From Lolium rigidum (taxonomy: Eukaryota; Streptophyta; Magnoliopsida; Poales; Poaceae): a stretch of 64,000 bases of DNA. This document shows positions 25,309 to 62,228 of this stretch, piece after piece. The translations under genes were made by a program, and so were the position numbers. The notes beneath the pieces are model-generated. The model searched no databases, was not told where the DNA came from, and worked only from the letters and a program-made list of their open reading frames with translations. Every line of letters starts with the position of its first letter. The stretch's first letter is position 1. The DNA lies in contig NC_061508.1 of NCBI RefSeq assembly GCF_022539505.1, positions 68,209,754 through 68,273,753 on the forward strand, given 5' to 3'.

Positions 25309-25658
25309 GAATTTTTGGCAAAAAGGACCACCTGCCCCAATGAAATGGCAAAAAGGACCACTGTGAGTGAAAATGGCAAAAGTGCCATGGCGGCACGCTC
25401 GCAAGCCGACACGTGGCAGGTGCCGCCGCCGGCTGTGGCGGCAGGCCCTGCCGCCGTGGGCTGTGGCGGCACGTCCGCTCGCTCATGGTCGCCGTCACCC
25501 GCCGTTACGCCCGTCGACCGAGGTGGGCCCTGCCGCCACGGACAAGGGCGGCACGCTGACATGGCCCCCTGCCTCCACCGGGCTGTGGCGGCAAGTCGGC
25601 TGCCGGCCCGACAAACGCAGCAGGCCTGCTGCACTGATTCCCACGAGCACTGATTCCC
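25309..25658 (+). repeat. MULE left TIR
   Basis: About 350 bp, matching the right TIR with roughly a dozen differences by eye. The outer end has TGGCAAAAAGGACCAC twice and a third partial copy (TGGCAAAAGTGCCA). The inner part holds many GGCGGC/GCCGCC motifs. Such repeats near the terminus are natural candidates for transposase or host-factor binding. Confidence 0.93.
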
Positions 25659-26539
25659 ACGCATTGCTTTTCAGTTGATTGCTTTGCTTTTTGCCATGGT
25701 TTTGGGTGTGGCGCGTGAATGGAGGGACTGCAGCTGATGATTTCGATGCTGTATGGGTGTAACTCGTCCGATTCGCATGCATTTGGTGCAGACATGACTC
25801 GAATGATACAGGAAATAGACCACCGAAAGTGCTTCGAGCAGATCGACTCCGCATGCTTTAAAAGCAGCTGCTGCTCACTCCTCACAGAGCAAGTTCTCAC
25901 TCACGCGCGCGCAGCTACTGCTTCTCTTGCTTCTCTCGCTTCTCTCGTACGAACAGACAGAAAATTAGCATAGCTAGTGATTAAGTGCGTGATTAAGTGC
26001 ATGAAGGGGCAGTAGAAGGACTAATACATCAAGGTGAGTTATGTGAGATATTTGATTATATTCGTACATGCACAAATTCTGTTACCATTTGCTGTCTACT
26101 GCAGTGTATCTTACTTTAGTAATTAGACATGTAACATTGAATTTGCGTAGTCTAGTGAAGTATTATTGTATGTATGAGTGAAATTTTAACATATGAACAA
26201 ATGGATGAATTTAGGTGGATTGGAGCATATATCTGCTAGTCTAGTATTATTGTATGTATGAGTGAAATTATAACATATGAGGAAAAGAACTAATTTATTG
26301 AAGAAGTGAGTACGCACGTTAGCTGGATGATATTAGTTGGAAATATCGTGAGGCGTAATTTATTGTTTGACGAATTCTTATAGGTAAAATAATCCTTTTT
26401 AACAATAAATGAGTAGTAATTTTGAAAAAGTCATAATGTCATGTTAAAATATCTGATGTAACGAAATTATTAAAACATGAATATGATTTAAGGTAGGATG
26501 TTACTAATATTATTTTAAAAATCTGGTTGTGCGGTAGGT
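25659..26539 (+). other. MURA 5' non-coding region with probable leader intron
   Basis: No coding sequence. A donor (CATCAAG|GTGAGTTATG) at about 26033 and an acceptor (GTGCGGTAG|G) ending near 26537 would define a leader intron of about 500 bp. A segment of about 40 bp (TATTGTATGTATGAGTGAAA) is repeated directly near 26160 and 26248. Confidence 0.45.
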
Positions 26540-26967
26540 ACGAGGGAAAAATTGGTAGTGTTCTATGGGGATGTCGTACGTGATGAATTTGGAGGGGTGG
26601 ATTTCTCGAACCGTGACTCGATGGAAGTTACAGTGATAGATATGGTTAACACAGCATTTGCGGATGTAAGAAAATGCATCCGAGTCCCATTTGGTCAGGG
26701 GATGCGTGGCATGAGGATGACAGTTGAGTCTCTTATCTGCGTAGAAGGGAATGATAGGACAGGACCTCCCCGTTGGGGTTTGCGGGAGGTAAAAAATGAT
26801 ACAAATTGGCGTACGTACATGAGGTTTGCAAGCACACCTGGTGCTGCTATGTACGGACGGCCGATGGTGTATGTGAAATTTATTTCAGCTAGTGATGATG
26901 TCGGAAGTAGTAGGAGCGCTGCAGGGGAGCAATTGTCCATCACCGCAGGCCCTAGTACCGGCCCGTC
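26540..26967 (+). pseudogene. MURA transposase, 5' part
   Basis: An open frame reading KLVVFYGDVVRDEFGG through to TAGPSTGPS gives the conserved N-terminal region of this grass MURA subfamily (residues about 1-140). No ATG is present at the expected start: the codon before REKLVVFYG is ACG, consistent with loss of an ATG. The frame is cut at 26967 by the gypsy element, and the coding sequence resumes in register at 47855 after the duplicated CCGTC. Confidence 0.85.
26963..26967. repeat. TSD CCGTC, left
   Basis: Matches 47850-47854 exactly, bracketing the gypsy element. Confidence 0.93.
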
Positions 26968-27355
26968 TGACATAGGCATCCCCAATGGGCCTGCCGAAGA
27001 TGGTACCCGGGGTTTAATGAAGGCCCATGACTCGAAGGATAAGGAGAATCGGAAGCCCAAATTACTATTAAGGAAAGCTAGAGTTGTATTAGGAAATAAT
27101 ACTTGTAATCTTGCGGGATGGGTTAGAAACCCTCCCGGACTCGCGTAACTTGTGTATTACGAATCCCTCGGCTCCGCCTCCTATATAAGGGGGAGTCGAG
27201 GGACAAAGAAAGCATCGATTCATTGTCTCACAAAACCCTAGTTTTCATATCGTCGAGCACTTTTCGGCTGAAATCTTCGAGATCTACTTGCCCTCTACTT
27301 CCGACTAAAACCCTAGTCTACAACCTGTAGGCATTGATAAGTTAATCCCTTGTCA
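26968..27355 (+). repeat. gypsy 5' LTR
   Basis: Begins TGACATAGGC and ends CCCTTGTCA. TATATAAGG at about 27182 is the likely LTR promoter element. Confidence 0.95.
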
Positions 27356-27356
27356 A

Positions 27357-27375
27357 TTGGCGCCGACCGTGGGGA
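27357..27375 (+). promoter_or_regulatory. primer-binding site of gypsy element
   Basis: TTGGCGCCGACCGTGGGGA lies one base after the 5' LTR; tRNA-complementary priming sites of this form are usual in grass gypsy elements. Confidence 0.8.
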
Positions 27376-27401
27376 TTAGAGGTGTCAAGGATCTGATCTC
27401 G

Positions 27402-29970
27402 ATGGCACGTTCAAAATCGTCGACTTCGTCAACTGCAAGCAACGCAATGGACAGAGGTAAACGGATCGAAACTGGTCTAGTTGATTTTGTACCTCACCCG
27501 CCCTCCCGTTTGGATGCATATGCGTATCTGGAGGAGCCCATGGAGATGACGTTCGGAAAGTTCCACTTCCGCGTCCAGAAAGAAGGAGCGTATCGTCTCG
27601 AAATTCCGATCTCATCGGGATTATCGGCGGTCGATCCTGATTTTTCGAGTTCAGCATCATCAATCGAGTCAGGCGACGAGGAGACTTCATCGCCACGCTT
27701 CATCAGCACCAGGGCGAGTGAAAAACTCGTCAAGATCTTCAGCGACATGTCCTTCGAGTCATCTGCGGACTCCTATATAAGCGATGACTCGAGCGACACC
27801 GACAGCTTCAACTTCATCGACAAATCCATCACCATTGGAAAGGTCTTCACCAATCCCTACGATGGTGTCACCAAACCCGACAAAGTTCAGAACCCAAAAT
27901 ATCATCAGATCTACGCAATTGGAGAACCAAGCGAACAGAACCAACGACGTCAGAGGCTTTCGACAATGCGGGTAATCCATATGTCGATCCCGCAGATCTC
28001 GCGCGAGGTTTGGGAACAAAATATATCGGAACAGGAACACGAGAGATGGTGTAATTTCCGCAGGCCGTATGGGATCGAGTCACAAGAGCTATCGATGGTA
28101 CAGAACCAATGACCATTGCGGCAACACCTGAGGAGTCACAAGCGAATCAATATAGGCTCGCCCGTATCAGGAGGGAGCTCGAGAAACAGAAAATCGAGTT
28201 GGACAGGAGGCATGAAGCAGCCTCCGCATCAAGCAGGCGAAGGGCAGAGCTAAGTCGATATTCAGGAACTTCGGGAGATAGTCATAGGGAAGCTCGAAGG
28301 AGAGCGAGATCCCATCTGCGAAATATACCTGAAGCAGAGAGAGAAAACTTAGTTCAAAACCTCGACATGTCTTTTTTGTCAATCGACACGAGGGGGAATA
28401 TTATTCCCAAAACAACGGAAGCTGGGTATATGGCGACGCAAGCCGTTATCCAAGAGAAGCATTGTACAATATGGCCATGGCAGGAGTCGGAGTTATGGGG
28501 ACAACATTCGTAACTCCGCCTCCTGAAGGGGCAGTAAGGCAAAATAGTCCACGACCCGCTGCAGCAACACCAGGTCCCGAGAGAACAAGTGGAGCACGAG
28601 ACATAGCAGCACAAGCACGGGTGGACAGAGCACGACAAAATAGAAGGGAACATCGACACTCCCCAGAGATAGATGATGAGGATATGTGTGGGCTGCCGTG
28701 CTTTACAAGGAGGGTCCGGAAAACTCGAGTTCTTTCAGGGTTTAAATTACCCGACAATTTCAAAAAATTCGACGGCCTGCAAGATCTAGAGGACTGGCTA
28801 GTCGATTATCTCGAGATGGTGAAGCTGATAGGAGGAACCAGAGCAACAGCCATGCAGAGCATCTAAGTACATCTGAGTGGAGCCGCAAGATCTTGGATAA
28901 AGAAGCTTCCCCCAGGTTCCATCGACAGCTTGGAATGTTTTGAGGATGTGTTCGTCAAGAACTTCCGATCTACCTGCAAAAAACCTGCATCGTTAGAAGA
29001 GTTGAGATCGTGTCGACAAAAGCATGATGAGTCAATGAGAAAGTATATCCAAAGGTGGAACATCATTAAAAACTCGGCAGAGAACATATCTGACGAGAGA
29101 GCGATAGATGCGTTCGTAGCAGAAATTCGAAGAGGAGACTTTGTCGAGGATTTGGGGAGAACTAACCCAAAAACAGTATCAGCATTGATGGAGATAGCAA
29201 ACAGGTGGGAAGATGGAGAGGATACTGTTCACAATAAACGGCACAGGTCGCCTGAAGGGGACCGCAATCGAAATTTCCAAAATAGGCGACGATTTTCTCG
29301 GCAGTACTCGAGTTACGATGCTCCTGGTCAAATCTCGGCTGGGTTCCGAGCAAGCGCTGGAGGAGGCAATAGAGATGACTATCAAAGGAGTAGCGAGCAG
29401 CGAGGCGACAATAGAGATGATTCTCGAAATAATAGGCAAAATAATGGGCCAAGGTTCCAGAGACCTTTCGTGTCCCCTGAGGACATGATGAACGGGCTGT
29501 GTCAGATGCATTTTTATCTCGACAACAACGGAAAAAGACAGTCAGGACATTTGCAGAAGGACTGTCAAAATTTTCAAGCAATGTTAAGGTTTGCGGGGCA
29601 AGCCAATGACCAAGCGACAAATAGAAATCCTCAAGGGCCCTGGAGTGAGATCCACTTGCCACCTCCTCCCGCAATTACGGACGAAAATCGGCACCAGCTC
29701 AGAATAGCGGCAGCGCCACAACCACCTCCATACATTGACCCCAACTCCAATGGTGCGGTCTCGATGATTCAGAAGGGTAGGCCGTCCAATAGAGCTCAGA
29801 AAGTAATCTCGCGGCAAGTGTTCATGGCAGAGAAGATTCCTCCACCAACGATTGAGTACCTAAATTGGTCAGGGCAGGACATTGGCTTCACAATAGCGGA
29901 TCACCCGCAGCAAGTTCCTCGACCGGGACGATCGAGCACTTATCTTACCAGCAGTAATCGCAGGATTTGA
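27402..29970 (+). pseudogene. gypsy gag, frameshifted
   Basis: The ATG at 27402 opens a Ser-rich N-terminus. The frame changes near 28080 and again near 28458, and a TAA interrupts at 28864-28866. The capsid-like region (LPDNFKKFDGLQDLEDWL, later RSCRQKHDESMRKYIQRW) and an atypical zinc knuckle (CQMHFYLDNNGKRQSGHLQK..C) place it as gag of the Tat type. It packages element RNA in a cytoplasmic particle when intact. As encoded it cannot be made whole. Confidence 0.88.
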
Positions 29971-32900
29971 CGTATCTCGAGTATTCATAGATGGAGGCAG
30001 CGGTCTAAACCTTATGTACGCAGATACACTAAGGAAGATGAACATATCTCTAGCAAATCTGAAACCAACCGACACACGTTCCATGGTATCACGCCAGAGA
30101 AGCCGAGCTATCCGTTGGGGAAGATCAATCTCGATGTTCAGTTTGGGACCCGAGAAAATTATAGAATAGAGAGGCTGGAGTTTGAAGTCGTGGATTTCCC
30201 ATCGCAATACCACGCCTTGTTGGGACGACCAGCATATGCCAGGTTTATGGTGGTACCGCACTACACGTACCTGTTGTGGAGGATGCCTGGACCCAAAGGA
30301 CCAATTATAGTCAAAGGAAGTTTTGCGTTAGCCGATAAATGCGACAAGGATTTTCATCGACTGTCAGAAACTTTCGGGATGCAAGCAAAGTATATGGCGT
30401 CAAGGCTCACGACTGATTATGATGTGCTACCAGATGTAGGAAGGTCTAACAAAGAACCAACCTTTAACACTGCAAAAGATTCCAAGGAGGTGCAGATTCA
30501 CCCGACAGATCCGAAGAAAACGACGTCCATCGCGACAGATATGGACCTCGCATAGGAAAACGCGCTCATCGAGTTCCTCCGTGAGCACTGGAAAATCTTC
30601 GCATGGTGTCCAACTGACATGCCAGGAGTACCCAGGGAACTTGCCGAGCACCACCTAAACTTGGATCCAATAGCGAGACCAATTAAGCAACCTTTGCGGC
30701 GTTTTTCGGAACCAAACCGCAAAGCTATGCTCTGTCGGAGATTGATCGACTCGGAGAAGCGGGTTTCATTAAAGAGCTGCATACGAGAGGCCACGTGGGT
30801 AGCAAACCCGATGCTTGGTCCCGAAGAAAAACACTAAAGTCCTTCGTATGTGTATCGAATTTACGTGTCTCAACAAGCACTGTCCAAAGGATCACTTTCC
30901 CCTCCCAAGGATCGATCAAATTATCGACTCCACGGCAGGATGTGAACGTCTTTCCTTTCTGTACTCATACTCTGGTTATAACCAGATCAGGTTGAAAGAA
31001 GAGGATGAGGTCAAAACAGCGTTCATTACACCTTACAGCGTGTTTTGCTACAGAACAATGCCCTTTGGTCTGAAAAACGCGGGAGCAACATATCAGCGGA
31101 TGATGCAGAAGTGCTTAGCAACACAGATTGGGAAAAACGTATAAGTGTACATTGACGATGTCGTTATAACGTCAAAAAAGGGGGCAACACTAATCGAGGA
31201 CCTAAAGGAAACTTTCGACAACCTCGACAAGTTTTGTCTCAAGCTGAATCCAACGAAGTGTTCTTTCGGCATTCCTGCAGGAGAACTTCTCGGGTTCCTA
31301 GTCTCAGCAAGAGGGATTGAAGCTAATCCAGAAAAAATTCAAGCTATCGTAACAATGAGGAAGCCAACAAAGTTGAAAGAAATACAGCAGCTAACTGGGC
31401 GAGTCGCAGCTTTAAGAAGATTCGTCGCCAGACTGGGAGAAAAAGCGTTACCGTTCTACGCTTTAATCAAGCAAGGAGAGAAGTTCCAGTGGAACGAATA
31501 GGCAGATAGAGCTTTCGAAGATCTCAAGCGCACAATTTCGACACCACCAATCTTGGTGGCGCCTAAAGAGAAGGAACCCCTCCTGTTATATATTGCAGCC
31601 ACGCCTCAGGTGGTCAGCACGGCGCTCGTTGTCGAAAGAGAAGAGGAAGGAAAACTCCATGGAGTACAGAGGCCGGTATATTTCATCTGTGAAGTTTTAT
31701 CGCCTTCAAAACAACGGTACCCGCAGTACCAGAAGCTAGCATATGGAGTGTTTACAACCGCAAGAAAATTGCGGCACTATTTTTCGGCACATCCGATAGT
31801 AGTGGTCAATGAGGCGCCCTTGTCCAATATACTAAACAATCCAGAGGCTACGGGTCGTGTCTCCCTTTGGGGAATAGAGCTTTCCCCTCGGGACATCACA
31901 TACGAGAAAAGAAAAGCAATAAAGTCGCAAATTTTACCGGACTTCATCGCAGAGTGGATGGAGTTACAAAATACAGGACCCCCAGATTTGTCGAGAACTT
32001 GGACTATGAACTTCGACGGGTCCAAGAGACTAGAAGGAGCTGGAGCAGGAGTGATACTAATATCACCTGAAGGCGACAAGTTAAAGTATGTTTTACGGAT
32101 GACGTTCCCAAACGCGTCTAACAATGAGGCAGAATATGAGGCTCTCATACACGGGATGAAGATGGCGAAAGCTTGTGGTGCAACTCGACTAAAAATATTC
32201 GGCGATTCACAATTGGTGGCTCAACAAGTCATGAACCAATGTGTTGCAGTCAATGATAGCATGGTGGCATACAAAGAAGTGTACAATGAGCTCGAGAAGT
32301 TATTCGATGGATGCGAGGTAAATCACATCAGCAGGCTGAGCAATGATGAAGCCGATGTTCTTGCAAACATCGGGTCGCAGTGCCTCGCAATTCCACCAGG
32401 CGTGTTTTGGGAAGAGATAGCTGAGAGATCTACAAAGCCGAAGAAAGCACAGAAGAAGCAGAAGGATGAGAAACCCTCGGGGCCCCCTAAAGAGGCACTA
32501 GAAGAAGAAGAGGAACAGGAACTAGTAATGATGGTGCAGGTTCCATGGATGCAAGCGTACATATCATACATCCTAAGGAAAGAAATACCCGACGATCCAG
32601 TTGAAGCAAGGCGAGTTATTAGACGATCCAAAGCTTTTACGGTGGTTAAAGGGGAGTTGTACAAGCGAAGTATTTCGGGTGTGTTACAAAGGTGCGTCAC
32701 ACCCGAAGAAGGAAGGATGATGCTGAAGGACGTACACGAAGGAATATGTGGTTATCATGCAAGCAGTCGAGCTATCGCGGCCAAGGTCTTCCGAGTAGGA
32801 TTTTATTGGTTGACAGCAATCGAGGATGCAAAGGAGATAGTACGAACTTGCGACGCGTGCCAGAGATTTGCCGCAAAGCCTCACTCTCCGGCAGCAGAAT

Positions 32901-33800
32901 TGATGCCAATACCCTTGTCTTGGCCCTTTGCTCAGTGGGGTCTCGATATGGTGGGAAAATTACACAAAGCTTCGCCAGAAGGATACGAGTATATGCTCGT
33001 CGCTGTCGACAAATTCACGAAGTGGATAGAAGCAAAGCCGATAAATTCACCAGATGGTGCATCCGCAATTAAGTTCGTGAAAAGCATTGTCTTTCGGTTT
33101 GGAGTACCTCATAGCATCGTCACGGACAATGGCAGTAATTTTACATCCAAGGAATTCAAGGCATACTGTGCAGATGTGGGCATCAAATTGCACTTCGCGT
33201 CAGTTGCGCATCCGCAAACCAACGGCCAAGTCGAAAAAGCCAATGGTATCATCTGCAATGGTATCAAGAAACGCTTGTTAGGATCATTGGAAAAAGCTCG
33301 ACATACTTGGCCAGAGGAGTTACCAAGTGTGTTGTGGAGTATCCGAACAACACCAAATACAGCGACACAGGAGACTCCGTTTTTTCTGGTCCATGGAGCC
33401 GAGGCAGTCTTGCCGATAGAAATAGAGCATGATTCTCCAAGAGTCGCGGAATATGATGAGGAAGCTTCTAGAAAAGCATTGGAAGACGATGTCGACGCAT
33501 TGGACGAAGCCAGAGATGAAGTATTATCACGGGTCACTAAGTACCGAGCAAGACTTGAAAAATTACCACGATCGACGTTTGCGACCAAGATTCTTTCAGA
33601 GTTGGAGACTTAGTTCTACGACTCAATCAAAATAGTACTCGAAAAACTCGAGTCGCCATGGCTTGGCCCTTACATCGTCACGAAGTAATAGAAGGAGGAG
33701 CGTACGGGATAAAGGACAAGAAGACGGGGGCTCCCGAGAAAAACCCCGGAACGTGGCACAACTCGGGCGTTTTTATGCCTAGAGTCGAAATATAGTCCTC
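29971..33800 (+). pseudogene. gypsy pol: protease, RT, RNase H, integrase
   Basis: The protease active site is in FIDGGSGLNLMY (about 29987). After a TAG at 30553 comes the RT, with the YIDD box at about 31148 directly after an in-frame TAA (31142-31144). Another stop lies at 31499-31501. A second RNase H of archaeal type (MNFDGSKRLEGAGAGVILIS, about 32006) follows the first, then the integrase with its zinc domain (CDACQRFA) and core (LDMVGKLHKA, then TDNGSNFTSKEF, HPQTNGQVEKAN) and a C-terminal segment reaching about 33795 after a further frameshift. The longest uninterrupted piece is 31553-33613. Stops and shifts make it non-functional. Confidence 0.9.
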
Positions 33801-34289
33801 CTTGTAAAAATACAATGTACTGAAACGCCCGCGAGTTTTCAGACGCACTCTTTTCCTTTTTCAGGGCACCGAGTGGGGCTGGAAAAGGTTTTTAATGAGG
33901 GGGCTCGCAGTGCTGCAATATAATAAAGATAGTGGAGATATATATCTTTTTCTTCGACAGGCTCGGGGGCTTGTGCCCAAGAGTTACAATATATATTACC
34001 GAAAATATTTCGCCTTGGTGCAAAACACCTCGCAAAATAAACGAAGATACAAAATAGCGATCAGCAAAAAAGGCCCGGGGGCTCGTACCCGCAACTATAG
34101 TATACTCAATATAATTTATTGGCCTTGGTTTAAACCTCGCATACACAATAAAGAAATTCGCCACCGAAACACTCAGAGGTTCGACAAAAAATTAAGGAAA
34201 ATATATTCAGAGGCTTTACAATATAGATTATGTTTACAATATACAAGATACAACTATTGAGAAAATTCGACAGGATAAAGGCAAAATTC
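33801..34289. other. gypsy internal spacer
   Basis: AT-rich, with CTCGGGGGCT-type motifs recurring (near 33900, 33962 and 34076). No gene. Confidence 0.5.
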
Positions 34290-35213
34290 TCAATTGATGC
34301 CTAGTATGTTATCTATGGTTATTCGCTCATTATTTGCAGCACGAGTACTATGTTCAGCATAGCTACCCTTCACGAAGAACTCAGCGTCCATCCGAAGCAG
34401 TTCATCCATCATATCTTCTGCTACAGGGGTTACAGCTTCATCGATTTTGTCAATATTTCTTTTCCTCTTCGCCATTTTGGCCAGGCACTTGGCAACAATC
34501 CGACTCATGTCCAACTTCGGATAGCAGATTTTTATCATAATCATAGCAAACCTTGCACCGGCAGACATTTGGGCCCGTACAAATCCATGGATTCGAGGAG
34601 CATCCCGAAATTTATCCATCAAAGCAGGAAGGGTTTCTGGCTTGTCGCGCGGGAACATGGTGCGGTAAACTAAGGACAACGTCCTTGTGCAGAAGTCGAG
34701 AAAATCGCGGACTTGACTCGCGCGATCCTGGAATCTGACAATTTGTTGCGTACGTTCCGGAGTAGCCCAGAAAAGAACTCCATGGTCAAGTCCCAGGTTG
34801 ATAAGAAAATTGGATCTTGTGTCAACTCTCTGGTTCTCGGCGTCAGCATCCAAGAAGGAACCTATTTGGCGATAGTATACCAGTTGGACGCAGAATACAG
34901 GCAAAGAAAAAAGGAGAGGGATCAGTTTTAGGAACATACCTGCCATATCCAAGCTTGCTTCGATCATCAACTCAAGCATGGTATTTTCTCGAGAAGCAGC
35001 CTGCGCAGCTTCAGCAACAGCGGTTTCTTTAGCAGCTATAGCCTCCTGAGCTTGTTGAAGCGCAATCTTTTCCTTCTCCGAGGATTTTCGAGATTTCTCC
35101 ATTATTATAAGTGCCTGCTTCTTCATAGACTGGAGATGTTGACGAAGTTCTGCCAAGTCTTGTGTTGAACCCCTACTCGAGGAATCTTTGGCAAATTCAT
35201 CATCGACAGGCAT
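34290..35213 (-). CDS. antisense ORF of gypsy element, two exons
   Basis: Exon 1 runs 35213-34940 from an ATG (MPVDDEFAKD) and encodes a long Lys/Glu/Gln-rich coiled coil. The 78-bp intron has GT-AG borders (GCAG|GTATG and AAATAG|GTTCC). Exon 2, 34861-34290, continues in phase as FLDADAENQR and ends at ILGIN. The product (about 280 residues) matches the style of antisense ORFs in Tat elements. Its role is unknown. No internal stop was seen. Splicing on this strand implies a separate promoter or a transcript starting outside. Confidence 0.6.
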   Translation of the reverse strand: MPVDDEFAKDSSSRGSTQDLAELRQHLQSMKKQALIIMEKSRKSSEKEKIALQQAQEAIAAKETAVAEAAQAASRENTMLELMIEASLDMAGMFLKLIPLLFSLPVFCVQLVYYRQIGSFLDADAENQRVDTRSNFLINLGLDHGVLFWATPERTQQIVRFQDRASQVRDFLDFCTRTLSLVYRTMFPRDKPETLPALMDKFRDAPRIHGFVRAQMSAGARFAMIMIKICYPKLDMSRIVAKCLAKMAKRKRNIDKIDEAVTPVAEDMMDELLRMDAEFFVKGSYAEHSTRAANNERITIDNILGIN

Positions 35214-36594
35214 TTTCTTCGAGTAGGATGAGGTAAGAAAAGCATCGGCAGGACGAGGAGTTGAAGTGTAGTTGTCAAAAATCAACTGGAAATGAAAGTC
35301 TCGACATCAATCATCAAGCAAAATAGATTTCCATTGATTCTCAAAATATTTACAAGTCATTACATCAGAAGGATATCCTATCAAACTAATGAGATAGGTG
35401 TCGCCAAAGCTATTTTGGCGACAACATCAAAAGAAAAGAGAAAACAAAAGAAAGAAAGGGTGGTCTACTTGACCTCCGGCTTCGATGAGCTGGGAGCAGG
35501 AGTTGGCTTGCATCCGAGGTAGGCAAGGATTTTCTTCGCATTAGGCATGGCAGCCTTGATCAATGATTGCCACCTCTTCGTCTCCATCGCTGTTGTGTCG
35601 CCAACTCTCGTCCAGTCGTCATCTTGTTGGCTGTCAGCGACCAAGGCGATAGTGCCTTCGACGCCAACTTTCAAACCTTCTTGGCGAAGTTTGAGCCCAA
35701 GGTCTTCTTGAGACTTGAAGCATTTGGCGAGAGCAACAAAAGTGTTGGGCTCTTCCTTCTTCGGGAATAAGTAGGGAAAAAGCTGCGACAGACCTGCTCT
35801 GGCATCGGTAAGGCCTTCGCGCGCCTCGTCCCCATGGATCTCAAGGAGAGAAAGCGCATCGAGAAGGCAATCACCTTCAGGATTGTCTAGCTCATATTCC
35901 TGTTGCGTCCTCCCTGAATGAATAACAAAAAGCATATCAAGAAAAGGCAAGCAATGACAAAGATGAGGACCCGAAGAAATAGCAAGGATATAAGTACTTA
36001 CTAACAAAACGTCGACTCTGCGACTCCAGGCGAGTAAGGATCTCTTTCTCGCGAGCAGCCTGCTGAGCCATGTTCTCGCTCAATGAAGTTTCCGCGTCAT
36101 GAAGTCTTTTTCGAAGATCTTCGACAGCGGAGGCATCTTTTTCAGCTTTTTTGCAAGCTTTTTCGCTTTGCTCTAACTTGGTAGTAAGAGCGTCAGCGCG
36201 ATTGTTAGCTTCAGCAAGGGATGCTGGCAAAAAAAAAGCGACAGTAAAATGTCATGACAAAAGAAATGAAGGAGTGTGATCGACAGAAGAAGCAGGGAAA
36301 AAAGAGTACCTTCAAGCTTGGTGGCATAATCACGATACCCGATAAATTGGGTACCGAGGCGGATAAATTCCTTCATGGAAGGCTGACGAGAAAACCACAG
36401 AAAAAAGAAATCAACATAGGAAGCAAAAGCTCGACAGCACCAAGCAAAGATCGGGGAAGAGTCCAAAGCAATGCAATGGTCAAAGTATATAAAAAGAGAG
36501 AGAAAAGATAACTTACATCATCCAATAAAGGAGCCGTGGAACTGACAGTCAGCAAGGAAGGTTCCTTGCCTACCTCGACCCTAGCCCTCTTTGG

Positions 36595-50031: not shown

Positions 50032-50045
50032 TGTAATTTGTTAAT

Positions 50046-52054: not shown

Positions 52055-53655
52055 TGATGGCGTGTAAGCACACGTCCGTTGGGAACCCCAAGAGGAAGGT
52101 GTGATGCGTACAGCAGCAAGTTTTCCCTCAGTAAGAAACCAAGGTTATCGAACCAGTAGGAGTCAAGGAACACGTGAAGGTTGTTGATGGCGGAGTGTAG
52201 TGCGGCGCAACACCAGGGATTCCGGCGCCAACGTGGAACCTGCACAATACAATCAAAGTACTTTGCCCAAACGTAACAGTGAGGTTGTCAATCTCACCGG
52301 CTTGCTGAAACAAAGGATTAGATGTATAGTGTGGAAGATGATGTTTGTTTACGAAAAACAGTAAAAAACAAGTATTGCAGTAGATTGTATTTCAGATGTA
52401 AAGAATGGACCGGGATCCACAGTTCACTAGTGGTGTCTCTCCCATAAGATAAATGGCATGTTGGGTGAACAAATTACAGTTGGGCAATTGACAAATAAAG
52501 AAGGCATAACAATGCACATACATATATCATGATGAGTACTATGAGATTTAATCGGGGCATTACGACAAAGTACATAGACCGCTATCCGAGCATGCATCTA
52601 TGCCTAAAAAGTCCACCTTCAGCTTATCATCCGAACCCCTTCCGAGTATTAAGTTGCAAACAACGGACAATTGCATTAAGTATGGTGCATAATGTAATCA
52701 ACACAAATATCCTTAGACAAAGCATCGATGTTTTATCCCTAGTGGCAACAACACATCCACAACCTTAGAACTTTACGTCACTCGTCCCGGATTCAATGGA
52801 GGCATGAACCCACTATCGAGCATAAATACTCCCTCTTGGAGTTACAAGTATCAACTTGGCCAGAGCCTCTACTAGCAACGAAGAGCATGCAAGAACATAA
52901 ACAACATATATGATAGATTGATAATCAACTTGACATAGTATTCATCATTCATCGGATCCCAACAAACACAACATGTAGCATTACAAATAGATGATCTTGA
53001 TCATGATAGGCAGCTCACAAGATCTAACATGATAGCACAATGAGGAGAAGACAACCATCTAGCTACTGCTATGGACCCATAGTCCAGGGGTGAACTACTC
53101 ACACATCGATCCGGAAGCGATCATGGCGATGAAGAGCCCTTCGGGAGATGATTCCCCTCTCCAGGCGAGGTGCCGGAGGCGATCTCCTGAATCCCCCGAG
53201 ATGGGATTGGCGGCGGCGGTGTCTCTGGAAGGTTTTCCGTATCGTGGCTCTCGGTACTGGGGTTTTCGCGACGAAGGCTTTAAGTAGGCGGAAGGGTAGA
53301 GTCGGGGGCGTCACGAGGGGCCCACACACTAGGGCGGCGCGGGCCCTAGCCTGGCCGCGCGGCCCTGGCGTGGCGGCGCCTCGTCGCCCCACTTCGTAAT
53401 CCTTTCGGTCTTCTGGAAGCTTCGTGGAAAAATAAGACCCTGGGCGTTGATTTCGTCCAATTCCGAGAATATTTCCTTTGTAGGATTTCTGAAACCAAAA
53501 ACGGCAGAAAACAACAACTGGCTCTTCGGCATCTCGTCAATAGGTTAGTGCCGGAAAATGCATAATAATGACATATAATGTGTATAAAACATGTGAGTAT
53601 CATCATAAAAGTAGCATGGAACATAAAAAATTATAGATACGTTTGAGACGTATCA
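52055..53655 (-). repeat. element D, left LTR
   Basis: Starts TGATGGCGTGTAAGC and ends GAGACGTATCA on the plus strand. Closely matches the right LTR with scattered differences. Confidence 0.93.
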
Positions 53656-56264
53656 AGCATCCCCAAGCTTAGTACCTACTCGCCCTCGAGTAGGTAAACG
53701 ATAACACAGATAATTTCTGAAGTGACATGCTATCATAATCTTGATCAATACTATTGTAAAGCATATGAGATGAATGCAGCGATTCGAAGCAATGGTGAAG
53801 ACAATGAGTAAACAACTGAATCATATAGCAAAGACTTTTCATGAATAGTACTTTCAAGACAAGCATCAATAAAACTTGCATAAGTGTTACTCATAAAGCA
53901 ATAAATTCTTAGTAGAAAGCTTTGAAACAACACAAAGGAAGATATAAGTTTCAGCGGTTGCTTTCAACTTCAACATATATATCTCATGGATAATTGTCAA
54001 CACAAAGTAATATAACAAGTGCAATAGGTAAACATGTAAGAATCAATGCACACAGTTGATACAAGTGTTTGCTTCTAAGATAGAAAGAATAGGTAAACTG
54101 ACTCAACAATAAAGTAGAAGATTGGCCCTTCGCAGAGGGAAGCATGAATTACTATTTTTGTGCTAGAGCTTTTCATTTTGAAAACATAGAAACAATTTTG
54201 TCAACGGTAACGGTAGTAATAAATCATATGTGTTATGTATAAGACATCCTATAAGTTGCAAGCCTCATGCATAGTATACCAATAGTGCTCGCACCTTGTC
54301 CTAATTAGCTTGGATTAACATGGATTATCATTGCATAGCATATGTTTCAACCAAGTGTCACAAAGGGGTACCTCTATGCCGCCTGTACAAAGGTCTAAGG
54401 AGAAAGCTCGCATTGGATTTCTCGCTTTTGATTATTCTCAACTTAGACATCTATACCGGGACAACATAGACAACAGATAATGGACTCCTCTTTAATGCAT
54501 AAGCATTCAACAACAGATAAAATTCTCATAAGAGATTGAGGATTAATTGTCCAAACTGAAACTTCCACCATGATTCATGGCTTTAGTTAGCGGCCCAATG
54601 TTCTTCTCTAACAATATGCATACTCAAACCATATGATCATGAAAATCGCCCTTACTTCAGACAAGACGAACATGCATCGCAACTCACATGATATTCAACA
54701 AAGGTGTAATAGTTGATGGCGTCCCCAGAAACATGGTTACTGCTCAACAAGCAACTTATTAAGAAATAAGATACATAGCTACATATTCTTCACCACAATA
54801 GTTTTTAAGGCTATTTTCCCATGAGCTATATATTGCAAAGACAAAGGATAGAATTTTTAAAGGTAGCACTCAAGTAATTTACTTTGGAATGGCAGAGAAA
54901 TACCATGTAGTAGGTAGGTATGGTGGACACAAATGGCATAGTTTTTGGCTCAAGGATTTGGATGCACGAGAAGAATTCCTCTCAATACAAGGCTAGGCTA
55001 GCAAGGTTGTTTGAAGCAAACTCAAGTATAAAATGGTACATCAAAGTTTACATATGAACATATTGTAAGCATTATAAGACTTTACATCGTCTTCTTGTTG
55101 TTCAAACACCTTAACCAGAAAATATCTAGACTCTAGAGACCAATCATGCAAACCAAATTTTAACAAGCTCTATGTAGTTCTTCATTAATGGGTGCAAGGT
55201 ACATGATGCAAGAGCTTAAACATGATCTATATGAGCACAACAATTGCCAAGTCTCAATTTATTCAAGACATTATACCATTTACCACATGCAGCATTTTCC
55301 GTTTCCAACCATATAACAATGAACGAAGTAGTTCAACCTTCGCCATGAACATTAAGAATGAACATATGTGTTCATACGAAACAGCGGAGCGTGTCTCTCT
55401 CCCAAACAAAGAATGCTAGGATCCGATTTTATTCAAACAAAAACAAAAACAAAAACAAACAGACGCTCCAAGTAAAGCACATAAGATGTGACGGAATAAA
55501 AATATACTTTCACTAGAGGTGACCTGATAAGTTGTCGATGAAGAAGCGATGCCTTGGGCATCCCCAAGCTTAGATGCTTGAGTCTTCTTAAAATATGCAG
55601 GGATGAACCACGGGGGCATCCCCAAGCTTAGACTTTTCACTATTCTTGATCATATTGTATCATCCTCCTCTCTTGATCCTTGAAAACTTCCTCCACACCA
55701 AACTCAAAACAAACTCATTAGAGGGTTAGTGCATAATTGAAAATTCATATATTCAGAGGTGACATAATCATTCTTAACACTTCTGGACATTGCACAAAAC
55801 TACTGAAAGTTAATGGAACAAAGAAATCCATCAAACATAGCAAAACAGGCAATGCGAAATAAAAGGCAGAATCTGTCAAAACAGAACAGTCCGTAAAGAC
55901 GAATTTTTCAGGGGCACTTAACTTGCTTAGATGAAAATCCCCGAATTGAATGAAAGTTGCGTACATATCTGAGGATCACGCACGTAAATTGGCAGATTTT
56001 TCTAAATTTTCTACAGCAGGGGCGGCTCAATTTCGTGACAGCAAGAAATCTGTTCCTGCGCAGTAATCCAAATCTAGTATTGACTTTACTATCAAAGACT
56101 TTACTTGGCACAACAATGCAATAAAATAAAGATAAGGAGAGGTTGCTACAGTAGTAACAACTTCCAAGACTCAAATATAAAACAAAGTGCAGAAGTAAAA
56201 TAATGGGTTGTCTCCCATAAGCGCTTTTCTTTAACGCCTTTCAGCTAGGCGCAGAAAGTGTGAA
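53656..56264. other. element D internal non-coding region
   Basis: No pol genes seen. GCATCCCCAAGCTTAG occurs at about 53657, 55558 and 55616. Parts match element C (38866-41313). Confidence 0.7.
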
Positions 56265-57137
56265 TCAAGTATTATCGAGAGATGAAGCATTGAAATTCTT
56301 ACCGGGGGCGTTGCGCCTACCTTTCTTACTCTTATTCTTACTCTTTGGTTTAGGGAATATGTGCCCGCATCCAGGTATTGAGGAATTTAGAGTGCCTTTC
56401 CCCACATCTATGATTGCTCCCAAGAGTTTCAGCAGGGATCTTCCAAGTGTGATTTGTCCTGTCCCTACACATTCAATAACGAGATAATCAGTGGATACCG
56501 TTCTTCCAAGAAGGGTTGTGAACACTCCTTCAGCTATTCCTTTAGGAATTATAACATAGTTATCAGTAAGAGTCATTCCTTCTCCACCTTCAGTAAGTCC
56601 CCAGAGTGTCAAAGATTCATAAATACTTTTAGGCATAAGGCAAAATTCATTCATAATATCACAACGGGCATACATTTTTTTACCATAAATAGTAACTTTA
56701 ATAGTAGGGTCCCACATTGAAGCTTCAGAGTTTATTGGAACATAATCAAAATGCTCACGAATCCGACTATACCCTTCTTTTAAGCAAGATACATTTGTCT
56801 CAAGAGTGTTTAATCTATTATAAATGCTAACAAGGGATGGATCAAAATTATTAGCGGAGCTAGATGATGTAACCAATTTTTTTATGGCATTAAAAGCTTG
56901 ATCCCCATCACAGTGAAGGAAATCTCCTCCCACTACAACATCCAAGGCATATCTATAGCGAAGAATAAGCCCAAAATAAAAGTTACTAAGAAGCAAACTT
57001 AGGGTCATTTTAGGTTCAGTTTTACTATAAGAATCAAAAATTCTAGACCAAGCTTCTTTAAAACTCTCTTCACCACCTTGTTTAAAAGTGAAAATCGAAT
57101 CCTCAGGTGATAGAGTAACAACTACAGGACTAGTCAT
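56265..57137 (-). CDS. element D gag/protease-like ORF
   Basis: 290 codons from ATG 57137 (MTSPVVVTLSPEDS). The first part is gag-like (EESFKEAWSRIFDSYSK..MTLSLLLSNFYFGL). The second part looks like a retroviral-type aspartic protease fold: CDIMNEFCLMPKSIYESL, then MTLTDNYVIIPKGIAEGV and TDYLVIEC. The usual Asp-Ser/Thr-Gly active-site triplet is not present at the expected place (YARCDIMNEFCLMP), so proteolysis is doubtful. It ends in a Lys-rich tail (KPKSKNKSKKGRR). Lacking RT and integrase, the element must rely on relatives. Confidence 0.65.
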   Translation of the reverse strand: MTSPVVVTLSPEDSIFTFKQGGEESFKEAWSRIFDSYSKTEPKMTLSLLLSNFYFGLILRYRYALDVVVGGDFLHCDGDQAFNAIKKLVTSSSSANNFDPSLVSIYNRLNTLETNVSCLKEGYSRIREHFDYVPINSEASMWDPTIKVTIYGKKMYARCDIMNEFCLMPKSIYESLTLWGLTEGGEGMTLTDNYVIIPKGIAEGVFTTLLGRTVSTDYLVIECVGTGQITLGRSLLKLLGAIIDVGKGTLNSSIPGCGHIFPKPKSKNKSKKGRRNAPGKNFNASSLDNT

Positions 57138-57347
57138 GATAATAAAATAAAGTAAATGCAAGTAACTAATTTTTTTTGTGTTTTTAATATGGAGAACAAG
57201 ACAGTAAATAAAGTAAAGCTAGCAACTAATTTTTTTGTGTTTTTGATATAAAAGCAAACAAAGCAGTAAATGAAATAAAACAAAGCAAGACAAAAACAAA
57301 GTAAAGAGATTGGATGTGGGAGACTCCCCTTGCAGCGTGTCTTGATC

Positions 57348-57461
57348 TCCCCGGCAACGGCGCCAGAAAAAATGTTGCTGGCGTGTAGTTGACGTGGGAG
57401 TTAGAAATCTTTGTGGTGTAACTTTTCTTCAGTTCCCCGGCAACGGCGCCAGAAAAAATGC
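57348..57461 (-). repeat. duplicated primer-binding segment
   Basis: CCCCGGCAACGGCGCCAGAA (and the following AAAAATG) occurs at about 57350-57377 and again at 57435-57461, the second copy beside the LTR. Only the LTR-proximal copy is correctly placed for priming. Confidence 0.88.
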
Positions 57462-57462
57462 T

Positions 57463-59061
57463 TGATGGCGTGTAAGCACACGTCCGTTGGGAACCCCAAG
57501 AGGAAGGTGTGATGCGTACAGCAGCAAGTTTTCCCTCAGTAAGAAACCAAGGTTATCGAACCAGTAGGAGTCAAGGAACACGTGAAGGTTGTTGGTGGCG
57601 GAGTGTAGTGCGGCGCAACACCAAGGATTCCGGCGCCAACGTGGAACCTGCACAACACAATCAAAGTAATTTGCCCCAACGTAACAGTGAGATTGCCAAT
57701 CTCACCGGCTTGCTGAAAACAAAGGATTAGATGTATAGTGCGGAAGATGATGTTTGTTTGCGAAGAACAGTAAAGAACAAGTATTGCAGTAGATTGTATT
57801 TCAGATGTAAAGAATGGACCGGGATCCACAGTTCACTAGTGGTGTCTCTCCCATAAGATAAATGGCATGTTGGGTGAACAAATTACAGTTGGGCAATTGA
57901 AAAATAAAGAAGGCATAACAATGCACATACATATATCATGATGAGTACTATGAGATTTAATCAGGGCATTACGACAAAGTACATAGACCGCTATCCAGCA
58001 TGCATCTATGCCTAAAAAGTCCACCTTCAGCTTATCATCCGAACCCCTTCCAGTATTAAGTTGCAAACAACAGACAATTGGATTAAGTATGGTGCGTAAT
58101 GTAATCAACACAAATATCCTTAGACAAAGCATCGATGTTTTATCCCTAGTGGCAACAGCACATCCACAACTTTAGAACTTTCTGTCACTGTCCCATATTC
58201 AATGGAGGCATGAAGCCACTATCGAGCATAAATACTCCCTCTTGGAGTTACAAGTATCAACTTGGCCAGAGCCTTTACTAGCAATGGAGAGCATGCAAGA
58301 ACATAAACAACATATATGATAGATTGATAATCAACTTGACATAGTATTCAATATTCATCCGATTCCAACAAACACAACATGTAGCATTACAAATAGATGA
58401 TCTTGATCATGATAGGCAGCTCACAAGATCCAACATGATAGCACAATGAGGAGAAGACAACCATCTAGCTACTGCTATGGACCCATAGTCCAGGGGTGAA
58501 CTACTCACACATCGATCCGGAGGCGATCATGGCGACGAAGAGCCCTCCGGGAGATGATTCCCCTCTCCGGCAGGGTGCCGGAGGCGATCTCCTGAATCCC
58601 CCGAGATGGGATTGGCGGCGGCGGCGGCTCTGGAAGGTTTTCCGTATCGTGGCTCTCGGTACTGGGGTTTTCGCGACGAAGGCTTTAAGTAGGCGGAAGG
58701 GTAGAGTCGGGGGCGTCACGAGGGGCCCACACACTAGGGCGGCGCGGGCCCTAGCCTGGCCGCGTGGCCCTGGCGTGGCGGCGCCTCGTCGCCCCACTTC
58801 GTAATCTTTTCGGTCTTCTGGAAGCTTCGTGGAAAAATAAGACCCTGTGCGTTGATTTCGTCCAATTCCAAGAATATTTCCTTTGTAGGATTTCTGAAAT
58901 CAAAAACAGCAGAAAACAACAGATCGGCTCTTCGGCATCTCGTCAATAGGTTAGTGCCGGAAAATGCATAATAATGACATATAATGTGTATAAAATATGT
59001 GAGTATCATCATAAAAGTAGCATGGAACATAAGAAATTATAGATACGTTTGACACTTATCA
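57463..59061 (-). repeat. element D, right LTR
   Basis: Second LTR; its outer end reads GACACTTATCA instead of GAGACGTATCA in the left copy. Confidence 0.93.
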
Positions 59062-60002
59062 TTGCGCTCGAGATGATGATGTTGTTACGAGAGCTTATGA
59101 CATGCCGGAGGCACCGTCGTCCAGACCCAGTATGGCGCGTACGAGCAGCATGGCGCGTACGCGGAATCCATCATATGCACGCGTAGACTCATCTCTACTT
59201 GATCGCTCACAATCAGCTCACATTTCTCCACCACATGGTGGCACACAGGTATTATCAGATACATCTAAAATTATGAATGGTCATATGTTCTTGTACAAGA
59301 TTTACAAATATATTATCTTCTATGCACTATAAATAGGAGGAGAATATTTTCTCTACTAATCCGTTCGGGGAAAGATTTTCATACACCCAAGGGGAGACTT
59401 CAAACATCGACAACACCACTCGCGTATGTTCATATTTTACAAATATTCACTTACACAACATAAAAATACGGCTATTATTTACGAGCCTTTTCGTACGCAG
59501 CAACATGTTGAAGCTAATTGGTCAGAGATGGAAGATGGACTCGGCTACAATATACCTCCTCCACAGGTTCATTCAATTTTAATATATAATTTCTCCCACA
59601 AAAAAATATTGATGCCTATTATTGACAACTCATATTTTTACGCAGCAATCTTTTGATCCTGCTTGGCCCAACATGATAGCTGGTTTTGGCCATAATATGG
59701 CCCCACCACAGGGTCGTGAGCATATGCAGCAAGATTATTATGCTGGATCTTATAGTCAACCTGACAATCAAGGGATATTTAATCAATTCTTTGCTGCTGA
59801 CATTATGAGCGGACAAGAAAGTTTAATTCCTCCAGCGACACAAACTCAGCACGTACTACAAACTCCACCACAGAACAATGATGCCAGCACCGATGATGAG
59901 GATGAAGAGTACGGCCGAGGTTTGCTCCCACATCGTTCACCACGTCGTTTGTCGCTTTCTGGTGCTAAGCAAAGACCACCACACCGTCGTCGACAAGCTT
60001 GA
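59062..60002 (+). pseudogene. PMD-domain gene of the MULE, 3' part
   Basis: Past the duplicated TTGCG the exon broken at 52054 resumes in phase and runs to 59248 (a Ser/Arg-rich stretch with MARTSSMARTRNPSYAR), donor CACACAG|GTATT. Exon 59501-59566 (22 codons) and exon 59646-60002 follow, ending in a Gln-, Asp/Glu- then Arg-rich tail (KQRPPHRRRQA). Both of the last exons begin CAG|CAA and share a W..M..G.G.N..PPQ pattern, so one is likely a duplicate of the other. This 3' part itself has no stop. Confidence 0.75.
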
Positions 60003-60143: not shown

Positions 60144-60695
60144 TTAAGTTACTACCAAAATGAAGATACATCGGCAATGCGAACACCACAACTTAAAATA
60201 AACGCTACGAGTAACATTATAAGCTTCACTTTTTCCCTTCTTCTTGCTCTTCGATGATGAACTAGCCTTTCCCTTCTTACTCGGTGGCGTAAAATCATCG
60301 TCCGAGTCAACGCAAGCGGATGCAGCGCTTTTTCCCTTGAAATATTCATTGCTCTTAGCCAGGCTCCTCGGCGTGAAGACTTCTTCGTCATCCTCCGTCG
60401 AGGAAGCCCATGTATATGGATACCTTAGAAATTCTTCTTGTTCCTTCTCATCATTCGGGTTCTTCTTCTCAAACCTTGCTTGCAACCTAAGAAGCTCTTG
60501 TCGTAATTCCACCGGAGTTCGGCCAGGCATACCTGCGTGCTTAGAAAAAAGCTTGCCTGCCTCAACGAGAAGATTCACATTCGTGAGCAGATCTTCGACA
60601 TTTTCTATGTTATTGGCACTCATAACTGAAGTAGCAGAGGAGATAAGAGGAGCAGCCATATGTGCAGTAAAACTACGATCTCCCCGAGGAGCCAT
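60144..60695 (-). CDS. 183-residue MULE-borne protein, unknown
   Basis: An intact single-exon frame from ATG 60695 (MAPRGDRSF). The N-terminal half is helical (ENVEDLLTNVNLLVEAGKLF, LRQELLRLQARFEKK), followed by an acidic segment and a Ser/Lys-rich stretch (PPSKKGKASSSSKSKKKGKS) that looks like a nuclear localisation signal. A TATA box (TATAAAAC) at about 60743-60750 lies roughly 50 bp upstream. It lies tail-to-tail with the PMD gene. I do not recognise a domain. Position suggests an accessory gene of the element, comparable in place to mudrB of MuDR but not visibly related. Confidence 0.6.
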   Translation of the reverse strand: MAPRGDRSFTAHMAAPLISSATSVMSANNIENVEDLLTNVNLLVEAGKLFSKHAGMPGRTPVELRQELLRLQARFEKKNPNDEKEQEEFLRYPYTWASSTEDDEEVFTPRSLAKSNEYFKGKSAASACVDSDDDFTPPSKKGKASSSSKSKKKGKSEAYNVTRSVYFKLWCSHCRCIFILVVT

Positions 60696-60741: not shown

Positions 60742-60750
60742 GGTTTTATA
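60742..60750 (-). promoter_or_regulatory. TATA box for the 183-residue gene
   Basis: Minus-strand TATAAAACC about 50 bp before the ATG at 60695. Repeated GGCGGGAA motifs (six or more, about 60769-60880) lie just upstream and may be promoter elements. Confidence 0.5.
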
Positions 60751-61024
60751 GCACGCGGGTCAGAGAAAAGGCGGGAAATCTTGGCGGGAATTCATGGCGC
60801 GGAATTTTGGCGGGAAAAAATAAGGTGGGAACTTTAGGCGGGAAAATTTACGCGCGAACTTTTTCCGGGAAATCAACATTTATTATTAATACATCTGCCG
60901 AAATAAAGTTGGAAATATAACTTAAATTAAAATATGGCTAATCACTACAACGAAATTTAATATACAACGCGAAAGTAAAATAGAATTTAAAATTTAAAAT
61001 ACGTAGTTACTACAACAGATCACT

Positions 61025-61714
61025 CTATTTGCCCTGCGTCCAGCGTGGCCATTTTCCAGTCTTGTCGCCGCGTTCTTCTACTGCATGCGCCTTAGCAGCC
61101 CTTTCTCTTAATCTCTTTCTTTCCGCTTCACGGGCCTCCCTGCGCACCTCATCCTCTGCATACCTACGTGCAGCCTCATCATCCATCCGCTTCTGATTTA
61201 CCTCGCGATTTCGAGCTTGCTCTGCCCTTAATTTTTGTATTTCTCTCTCTCTTTCTGCTTTATCATTAGCAATAGCCTTTTCGAAACGCTCCTTCTCACG
61301 GAACCTTGCCCATGCACGCCTCTGTTTTTCCTCCACCTCACGGCGCGCCCAATCCGGCTGCTCCTGGTCTATCCAGTGAAACCAGTTGCAAAGGGGCGGG
61401 GGAGACTGCAACAAAAATAATACTGTTAATAAACAAAAATTAATGAAACATACCGCAGGCCTTGAGGATTTTTAATCATGCTTTTAGAAAATTACCGCAG
61501 GCCACGAGGACGATGAACTTGTACGTGCGGGTGGATCATGATCGTAATAAGCGCACATGAAATTTTTCATGCCGAACTTATCGGAAAAATCCACCACCTC
61601 CTTCACCTTCGCAAGGCGGCCGCACCAACACCTCTCTGATGTAACCCCCGGTGGCAAGCTTGCATTCTTCCCCTTCATCGGCCTGAAATCCTGGTCCGAG
61701 CAAGGCACACTCAT
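61025..61714 (-). CDS. MULE-borne zinc-finger/coiled-coil protein, two exons
   Basis: Exon 1 runs 61714-61496 and exon 2 61405-61025. The 90-bp intron has GT-AG borders and phase 0, giving 72 + 127 codons including the stop, about 199 residues. The N-terminal finger spans the intron: RCWCGRLAKVKEV, then KNFMCAYYDHD, then PPPLCNWFHWID. This is a Cys4 zf-GRF-like pattern seen in many grass proteins. A long Arg/Glu/Lys-rich coiled coil follows (RRAWARFREKERFEKAI to the end). Intact. The upstream ATG at 61759 is only about 15 bp from the TATA box, so 61714 is preferred. GRF-type fingers bind single-stranded nucleic acid in other proteins; here the role is unknown. Confidence 0.75.
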
Positions 61715-61770
61715 GCTGGCTAAGGTATAATGACTTGTGACCTGTGTACCAAATAACATCGATCGCTGCT

Positions 61771-61780
61771 TTTATAGAGA
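61771..61780 (-). promoter_or_regulatory. TATA box just inside the right TIR
   Basis: TCTATAAAAG on the minus strand, about 60 bp before the ATG at 61714 and about 100 bp inside the inner edge of the TIR, so the TIR forms the upstream promoter region of this gene. Confidence 0.6.
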
Positions 61781-61880
61781 ACTGAACAGATCGAGCGGGA
61801 GAATTAGGCGGGAAATTACTGCAATCAGCAGAAAAGCGAAGCAATCATCACAAAAGGGAAGCAATCAGCAAAAAAGCGAA

Positions 61881-62228
61881 GGAATCAGTGCTCGTGGGAA
61901 TCAGTGCAGCAGACCTGCTGCGTTTGTCGGGCCGACAGCTGACTTGCCGCCACAGCCGGTGGAGGCAGGGGGGACGTCAGCGTGCCGCCCTTGTCCGTGG
62001 CGGCAGGGCCCACCTCGGTCGACGGGCGTAACGGCGGGTGACGGCGACCATGAGCGAGCGGACGTGCCGCCACAGCCCACGGCGGCAGGGCCTGCCGCCA
62101 CTGCCGGCGGCGGCACCTGCCACGTGTCGGCTGGCGAGCGTGCCGCCATGGCACTTTTGCCATTTTCACTCACAGGTGGTCCTTTTTGCCATTTCATTGG
62201 GGCAGGTGGTCCTTTTTGCCAAAAATTC
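61881..62228 (-). repeat. MULE right TIR
   Basis: Inverted copy of 25309-25658, with the same doubled TGGCAAAAAGGACCAC motif at its outer end. Confidence 0.93.

Follow-up and report, generated by a model that had tools for sequence, protein, structure and literature searches.

We analysed a 64,000-nucleotide stretch of the Lolium rigidum genome (assembly GCF_022539505.1, contig NC_061508.1, positions 68,209,754 to 68,273,753 of the forward strand; hereafter the window), which contains a 36.9 kb interval bounded by terminal inverted repeats (TIRs). The interval holds four genes: a MURA transposase gene, a plant mobile domain (PMD) gene, a '183-residue' gene designated g183, and a GRF-like zinc-finger gene (Table 1). 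The two TIRs are identical at 364 of 376 aligned bases, with 8 gap positions besides (362/376 under the other scores of a local alignment), and the 9-mer ATGATACTA directly adjoins both as a 9/9 match. Mutator-like elements (MULEs) are recognised by a target duplication of 8–11 bp, usually 9, and by long TIRs, both of which are present here. The probability of a chance match for one given 9-mer is 3.8e-6; a third copy of ATGATACTA lies outside the element, at 24970. The element's termini begin GAATTTTTGG. The proposal of the initial annotation, a single insertion with inverted termini and an exact 9-bp duplication, was borne out.

Two long terminal repeat (LTR) retrotransposons are nested in the interval, LTR-A within MURA and LTR-B within PMD. 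The 5-bp duplication around each indicates that the gene pieces on its two sides were once contiguous. Without them the element measures 36,920 − 20,887 − 7,012 = 9,021 bp (summed by hand), which agrees with the ~9.0 kb first estimated. The coordinates behind the original 36.9 kb hold as well, but this length is nominal because LTR-A, delimited here by its boundaries, contains a run of 100 Ns at 38652–38751. At a substitution rate of 1.3e-8 per site per year, LTR divergence places LTR-A at ~0.5 and LTR-B at ~1.3 million years, and the MULE is older than both since both inserted into it. We consider it highly probable that a single Mutator-like DNA transposon of ~9.0 kb accounts for the interval, one that was later split by the two LTR elements, belongs to a four-gene, multi-copy family and likely moved by cut-and-paste using its own MURA. 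This mode of movement would follow, by analogy with known MULEs, from the combination of TIRs, 9-bp duplications and a MULE transposase.

Table 1. Features of the element (window coordinates)
Feature	Position	Strand	Basis or remark
Left 9-bp target site duplication, ATGATACTA	25300..25308	.	sequence
Left TIR, 383 bp	25309..25691	+	alignment, genome matches
MURA, N-terminal part up to LTR-A insertion	26519..26967	+	open frame; precedes rest of MURA in other copies
LTR-A target duplication, CCGTC	26963-26967 and 47850-47854		
LTR retrotransposon A, with further repeats inside	26968..47849	+	LTRs 98.7% identical; splits MURA
MURA transposase, remainder	47850..50031	+	PF10551, PF04434; open frames
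PMD gene, several exons, split by LTR-B	50280..60002	+	PF10536 in two frames
LTR-B target duplication, TTGCG	52050-52054 and 59062-59066		
LTR retrotransposon B	52055..59061	+	LTRs 96.8% identical; splits PMD
g183	60144..60695	-	open frame, relatives
GRF-like gene, exon 2: last finger cysteine, coiled-coil part	61025..61405	-	open frame, relatives
GRF-like gene, exon 1: start codon, CxC...C part of finger	61496..61714	-	GT...AG intron; 199-residue relatives
Right TIR, 377 bp	61852..62228	-	alignment
Right 9-bp target site duplication, ATGATACTA	62229..62237	.	sequence

The genes of the window copy

Read from left to right, MURA and PMD lie on the forward strand and g183 and GRF on the reverse strand. 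The genes thus form one pair of two-gene units running inward from the TIRs, MURA then PMD and GRF-like then g183, and the two convergent pairs described initially were a misreading. As expected of a MULE transposase, MURA matches PF10551 (E 4.6e-16) and a SWIM finger (2.4e-5) in a Pfam scan. It also has invariant acidic residues, which may include the catalytic DDE triad, and its remainder aligns over 86% of its length with a Lolium perenne protein, at 93% identity. Several frame breaks fall between 47850 and 48610. An AT-rich tandem repeat with a ~37-bp period (50044–50273) separates the MURA stop from the PMD start. Two pieces of PMD match PF10536 at 2e-32 and 1.4e-14 in different frames, and its last open frame spans 59613–59999. 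Relative to two other copies in the genome, L011 and L012, the window PMD has a 38-bp deletion, and it has a second frame break; the same two pieces share one frame in L011.

For g183 we found no Pfam domain, and its structural model, predicted to be helical, gave no fold match against the PDB (best E 2.9). Seven relatives were retrieved from jgi and ena sources, four at 78–96% and three at 28–35% identity. In many close copies a TGA lies inside the match and the match ends at codon 155–158; the corresponding position is also where the relatives P0001 and P0003 stop. All four genes named at the outset are present, but the 183-residue end is probably a frame extension that reads past the stop of the relatives. 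The GRF-like gene has two exons, a GT-AG intron and 199 codons, and its product is 91, 90 and 80% identical to three full-length 199-residue L. perenne proteins. In one or both of two alignments, C29, C31, C54 and C79 each show no or almost no variation, and 9 of 13 relatives match PF06839 at weak E-values of up to 1 (best 0.0026). In the model of the relative P0008 a long helix is predicted at residues 91–184, the only confident part; residues 1–87 have a predicted local distance difference test score below 50. Fused gene models point to the same grouping. In L. perenne, P0038 links MURA with the last exon of PMD and P0013 links GRF with a g183-type protein; P0042, from a short jgi contig, combines MURA with antisense GRF, and in P0014 GRF is combined, weakly (E 5.5e-4), with antisense PMD. 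The window copy itself is a dead relic: MURA and PMD are interrupted and frame-broken, and g183 is probably overrun.

Recurrence of the gene set in the genome

We searched the assembly of origin (2.44 Gb, 1,764 contigs) with the four proteins. Removal of 18 second pieces from 101 MURA rows left 83 loci. For g183, 150 of 152 matches were listed and 10 second pieces removed, giving 140 rows, which we divided into class 1 (84 rows at ≥48% identity) and class 2 (56 rows); the 158 PMD matches were reduced to 89 by removing second pieces and matches under ~47% identity. PMD was counted as a neighbour within 25 kb of MURA, and g183 or GRF within 40 kb. Counts of neighbours come from separate protein searches, refer to the matches listed and are lower bounds. 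PMD, g183 and GRF accompany MURA in the same order at no fewer than 19 of the 83 loci, a figure that was the same with 60 hand-picked or all 150 listed GRF rows, so that, besides the window, 18 or more places in the genome have this gene set with its order and orientation unchanged. Other loci have PMD and GRF (15), PMD and g183 (10) or g183 only (2). Among the matches listed, none of the 83 loci has a neighbour in the wrong place or on the wrong strand. At least 61 of the 83 have one or more neighbours in the expected place, against a mean of 0.06 of 83 under random placement (a control that used the 60-row GRF list, placed loci on C1–C7 only and assumed the length of C3). Viewed from class-1 g183, at least 31 of 84 rows have a same-strand GRF upstream and at least 28 an opposite-strand MURA downstream, with no other arrangement of GRF or MURA among the matches listed; at least 24 of the 56 class-2 rows likewise have GRF upstream on the same strand. 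Such recurrence in the same order and orientation indicates a real transposon family.

The TIR has at least 41 matches in the genome (40 of 611 candidates were scored), and, as the initial annotation had anticipated for shorter TIR-bounded copies, of 15 TIR-anchored places fetched, nine contain the complete set in order, some with partial MURA (L011, L012, L015/16, L017-19, L020-22, L025, L027, L028 and L030). These nine reduce to seven because L025 and L030 share flanks with L017-19 and L012. L012 is a short copy of 9,037 bp in which the two termini are present and flanked by the perfect 9-bp duplication GCGGCAGCC; of eight readable class-1 terminus pairs, six have a perfect duplication (window, L012, L013, L014, L020/22 and L027). 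The other class-1 TIR pairs measured are 82–93% alike, versus 96% for the window by the same method; one terminus of L015/16 is truncated. In L023 and L024 the fetched stretch contains three of the genes; L026 has only the N-terminal part of MURA, and L029 none of the four. Copies lacking PMD, which would have spoken against a four-gene element, were found in a weak form: L013 (4,221 bp; first part of MURA, g183 and GRF) and L014 (1,761 bp; GRF only) have both termini and no PMD, but they retain g183, GRF or both and resemble products of internal deletion. Nine places were read at both ends (window, L011-L014, L015/16, L017-19, L020-22 and L027), and in none of these was MURA the only gene.

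Some copies resemble local duplications, namely the four-gene copies with common flanks L012 and L030 (C7 near 160.0 and 158.6 Mb) and L019 and L025 (C6 near 302.68 and 302.16 Mb). About 96 kb past the window's right TIR, L026 (G000:C1:68358700-68368699, where G000 is the assembly of origin) repeats the left end of the window's element in inverted orientation, with the same flank and a TIR 99% identical; it is either an inverted segmental duplication or an assembly duplicate. Scans of IMG/VR with MURA, GRF and g183 found no relatives, and a TIR-motif scan found one locus, L001, at which the TIR match covers only ~20 bases. The sole locus from the bacterial genome collection is L002, a 39% MURA relative on a 3,290-bp contig of Dechloromonas sp. 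H13, which is probably contamination.

Related families

Most class-2 g183 rows (<48% identity, n = 56) are without stops. Of four class-2 places fetched, L031 and L032 have the complete gene set, again in this order. L032 is 9,064 bp long, has TIRs of 134 bp (132/134 identical) whose termini begin GCGATTTT, and is flanked by the perfect 9-bp duplication CACGAGGAC; a comparison of its TIR with that of class 1 gave no match. Protein identity to the window is 34% for MURA, 46% for PMD, 36% for g183 and 77% for GRF. A class-1 sister, L033 (8.47 kb, perfect 9-bp duplication CTACTTCGG, 77.6% TIR identity between its ends), has MURA, PMD and GRF and no g183, with only ~330 bp between its PMD and GRF matches. 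Beside MURA and PMD, the GRF-like gene and g183 recur in many copies in a fixed place, and this holds for two or more MULE families that are deeply diverged.

Several observations weigh against the four-gene interpretation. Both termini are present at L011 and at L017/19 without a duplication, and among the matches listed 15 of the 83 MURA loci have PMD alone and 22 have neither PMD, g183 nor GRF as a neighbour. Only two of the four class-2 places show the full gene set: L034 has MURA, g183 and GRF pieces with no PMD match, and L035 has GRF, g183 and a weak PMD piece with no MURA match. One class-2 g183 has a GRF match nearby on the opposite strand. The finger of the window's GRF-like product scores 12.5 bits, below the Pfam cut-off of 25.9 for PF06839.

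Possible exchange of the GRF unit between families

We compared synonymous difference (pS) across the genes (Table 2). GRF is much less diverged at synonymous sites than the transposases that accompany it, which suggests that the GRF unit, in L031 the GRF-like gene together with g183, has been exchanged between MULE families. The L031/L032 pair shows this most sharply: identity along the element is 86–93% at positions 501–2000, 76% in the next bin and 54–70% elsewhere, compared with 85–97% throughout for the control pair L011/L012.

Table 2. pS between elements, with codon-bootstrap ranges in parentheses; GRF values include ~25 intron codons read through
Pair	MURA	PMD	g183	GRF
window/L032	0.80 (0.75-0.86)	0.84 (0.74-0.94)	0.74 (0.59-0.89)	0.43 (0.34-0.52)
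L033/L032	0.80	0.75		0.42
window/L033	0.46 (0.40-0.51)	0.63 (0.54-0.72)		0.27 (0.20-0.35)
L012/L033	0.47 (0.42-0.52)	0.57 (0.49-0.66)		0.39 (0.30-0.48)
L031/L032	0.63	0.56	0.14	0.12
L032/L034 (control)	0.07		0.06	0.09
window/L012 (control)	0.11	0.16	0.08	0.19

Low synonymous divergence of GRF could instead reflect constraint on its codons or DNA, for example by an overlapping regulatory sequence, and the bins over GRF are indeed the most similar, or among the most similar, in both L033/L012 and L031/L032. In class 1, however, synonymous change is no slower in GRF than in MURA (median dS 0.142 versus 0.071), so that a slow GRF clock is no ready explanation, and the 86–93% similarity of L031 and L032 spans GRF and g183 including the GRF intron and intergenic DNA before falling to 54–76% past position 2000. 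We therefore regard constraint as rather unlikely, though it deserves some weight. Exchange has its own difficulties. Few families were sampled for this comparison; the intron codons read through enter the protein comparisons as well as the pS values; GRF is not clearly separated from MURA in L012/L033; and in L031, the sharpest mosaic, no 9-bp duplication was recognised, so that local recombination is possible there. On balance we give about even odds to a modular organisation of grass MULEs, in which a GRF-like or GRF-g183 cassette has been traded among families with unrelated TIRs and transposases more recently than those families diverged.

Selection and possible roles of the accessory genes

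Ratios of nonsynonymous to synonymous substitution (dN/dS) between class-1 copies were below 1 in nearly all pairs: the medians are 0.49 for MURA (34/34 pairs below 1), 0.61 for PMD (44/45), 0.32 for g183 (47/51) and 0.47 for GRF (65/66). L025, L030, high-scoring segment pairs under 70% identity and pairs with dS ≤0.02 were left out. The pairs are non-independent, pseudogenes among the copies push the values up, and dS was computed by one method (NG86).

These values bear on whether the accessory genes matter to the element. PMD, g183 and GRF might be host gene fragments captured once, in the manner of Pack-MULEs, and carried as passengers without a role. MULEs do capture host genes, the PMD of MULEs is thought to be host-derived (PMC5418596), and many copies have stops or frame breaks. 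The sub-unity medians for all three genes, and the occurrence of this gene set, with its order kept, alongside a transposase ~34% identical in another family, make passengers improbable in our judgement; the element is not itself a Pack-MULE, as MURA is present. Far less probable still is an accidental pairing of TIRs through the juxtaposition of two different MULEs or of a MULE with unrelated genes. The large nominal size of the interval and the TIR pairs without duplication (L011, L017/19) would fit such a juxtaposition. It is opposed by the exact 9-bp duplication and near-identical TIRs of the window, and by the same four genes between two TIRs with 9-bp duplications in L012, L020/22 and L027. 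The duplications of these three and of the window differ from one another, though L012/L030 and L017-19/L025 share flanks. We rejected separate neighbouring elements on this recurrence of copies with duplications.

A single transposon whose three extra genes are likely to help it move or escape silencing, as far as sequence comparison can tell, is the reading that we favour. In maize MuDR each TIR drives the adjacent unit, and by analogy each TIR here may act as promoter of the adjoining two-gene unit. GRF fingers elsewhere bind DNA; a GRF-like finger with a long predicted coiled coil might bind DNA too, perhaps at the element's ends, as an accessory in excision or reinsertion. The g183 product may be a small helical partner, and would be dispensable for such elements because the sister family L033 is without it. 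PMD could counter host silencing, as has been speculated for PMDs captured by MULEs; the paper that regards MULE PMDs as probable captures from the host calls an anti-silencing use a tempting speculation (PMC5418596).

Outside the element, short tandem arrays occur in the window at 10591–10904 and 13620–14051, with units of ~17–19 bp and 54 bp.

Comparison with known systems

Maize MuDR, like the element described here, has long TIRs, next to each of which a unit runs inward, and it too is flanked by a 9-bp duplication. Each of its units has one gene, whereas each has two here, and GRF occupies the place of mudrB beside the second TIR, a likeness of position. In a literature search made mainly on titles and abstract openings, which left aside subscription papers and Repbase reports, we found no MULE with PMD, GRF and g183. 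Elements with MURA and PMD, and grass MULEs with three open reading frames (ORFs), are already published; the gene set with GRF and g183 was not found. The initial annotation was right that this set is unusual, in that the combination with GRF and g183 was not found in print, but it overstated the rarity, since PMD is described as common in plant MULEs (PMC6446971) and three-ORF grass MULEs have been reported (PMC9168764). What is new, by sequence comparison, is that L032, representing a second family whose termini are unrelated and whose transposase is 34% identical, has these four genes in that order, with a GRF gene far closer than the others.

The plant MULE groups of Dupeyron et al. 2019 (PMC6446971) are described with a MURA that has a SWIM finger and with a 9-bp duplication, as here. 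PMD is reported there in most members of MULE-Monocots, MDR, MUDRAVI2 and MUDR, with TIRs of up to 447 bp among the table rows examined; it is often antisense in those groups, in contrast to its sense orientation in the window element. The Table 1 rows of that article that we examined hold no GRF-like gene, and the word GRF is absent from its text. Arabidopsis VANDAL21/Hiun also has accessory genes (VANA, VANB and VANC), one of them anti-silencing, and VANC is described as carrying DUF1985 and DUF287 (PMC5735166). Ten pieces of our element scanned against Pfam gave no DUF1985 or DUF287 match, and we rejected membership in VANDAL. A perennial ryegrass genome is reported to hold 1,247 Mutator elements, in a passage that gives no gene detail (PMC9281035).

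The closest description is that of Hvu_Abermu and Type I Abermu (Gao et al. 2022, PMC9168764), a Triticeae/Poeae MULE of more than 8 kb with 9-bp duplications and Ka/Ks below 1, in which MURA and a second ORF run in one direction and another ORF in the opposite direction, all as here. Its termini are given as GGG...CCC and its TIRs as 138–145 bp, against GAATTTTTGG and ~380 bp for the window element; it has three ORFs, with the functions of ORF2 and ORFR unassigned there, against four genes including PMD here. Because termini and TIR length differ from the published description, we rejected membership in Abermu. For one Abermu element pair, Table 2 of that article gives a Ks of 1.35 for ORFR and 0.056 for ORF1, a discordance of the same kind as seen here. 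Its authors attribute the Table 2 values to looser selection (PMC9168764); the unequal Ks could also reflect replacement of the ORFR unit. The accessory genes of MULEs are an open end of Mutator biology, and many extra ORFs are orphans. MURB is reported as needed for insertion in maize (cited in PMC9168764) and VANC lifts silencing in Arabidopsis (PMC5735166); beside these, the orphan families GRF-like and g183 become testable components rather than passengers. If the exchange is real, unrelated transposons could by this route acquire anti-silencing or insertion genes from one another.

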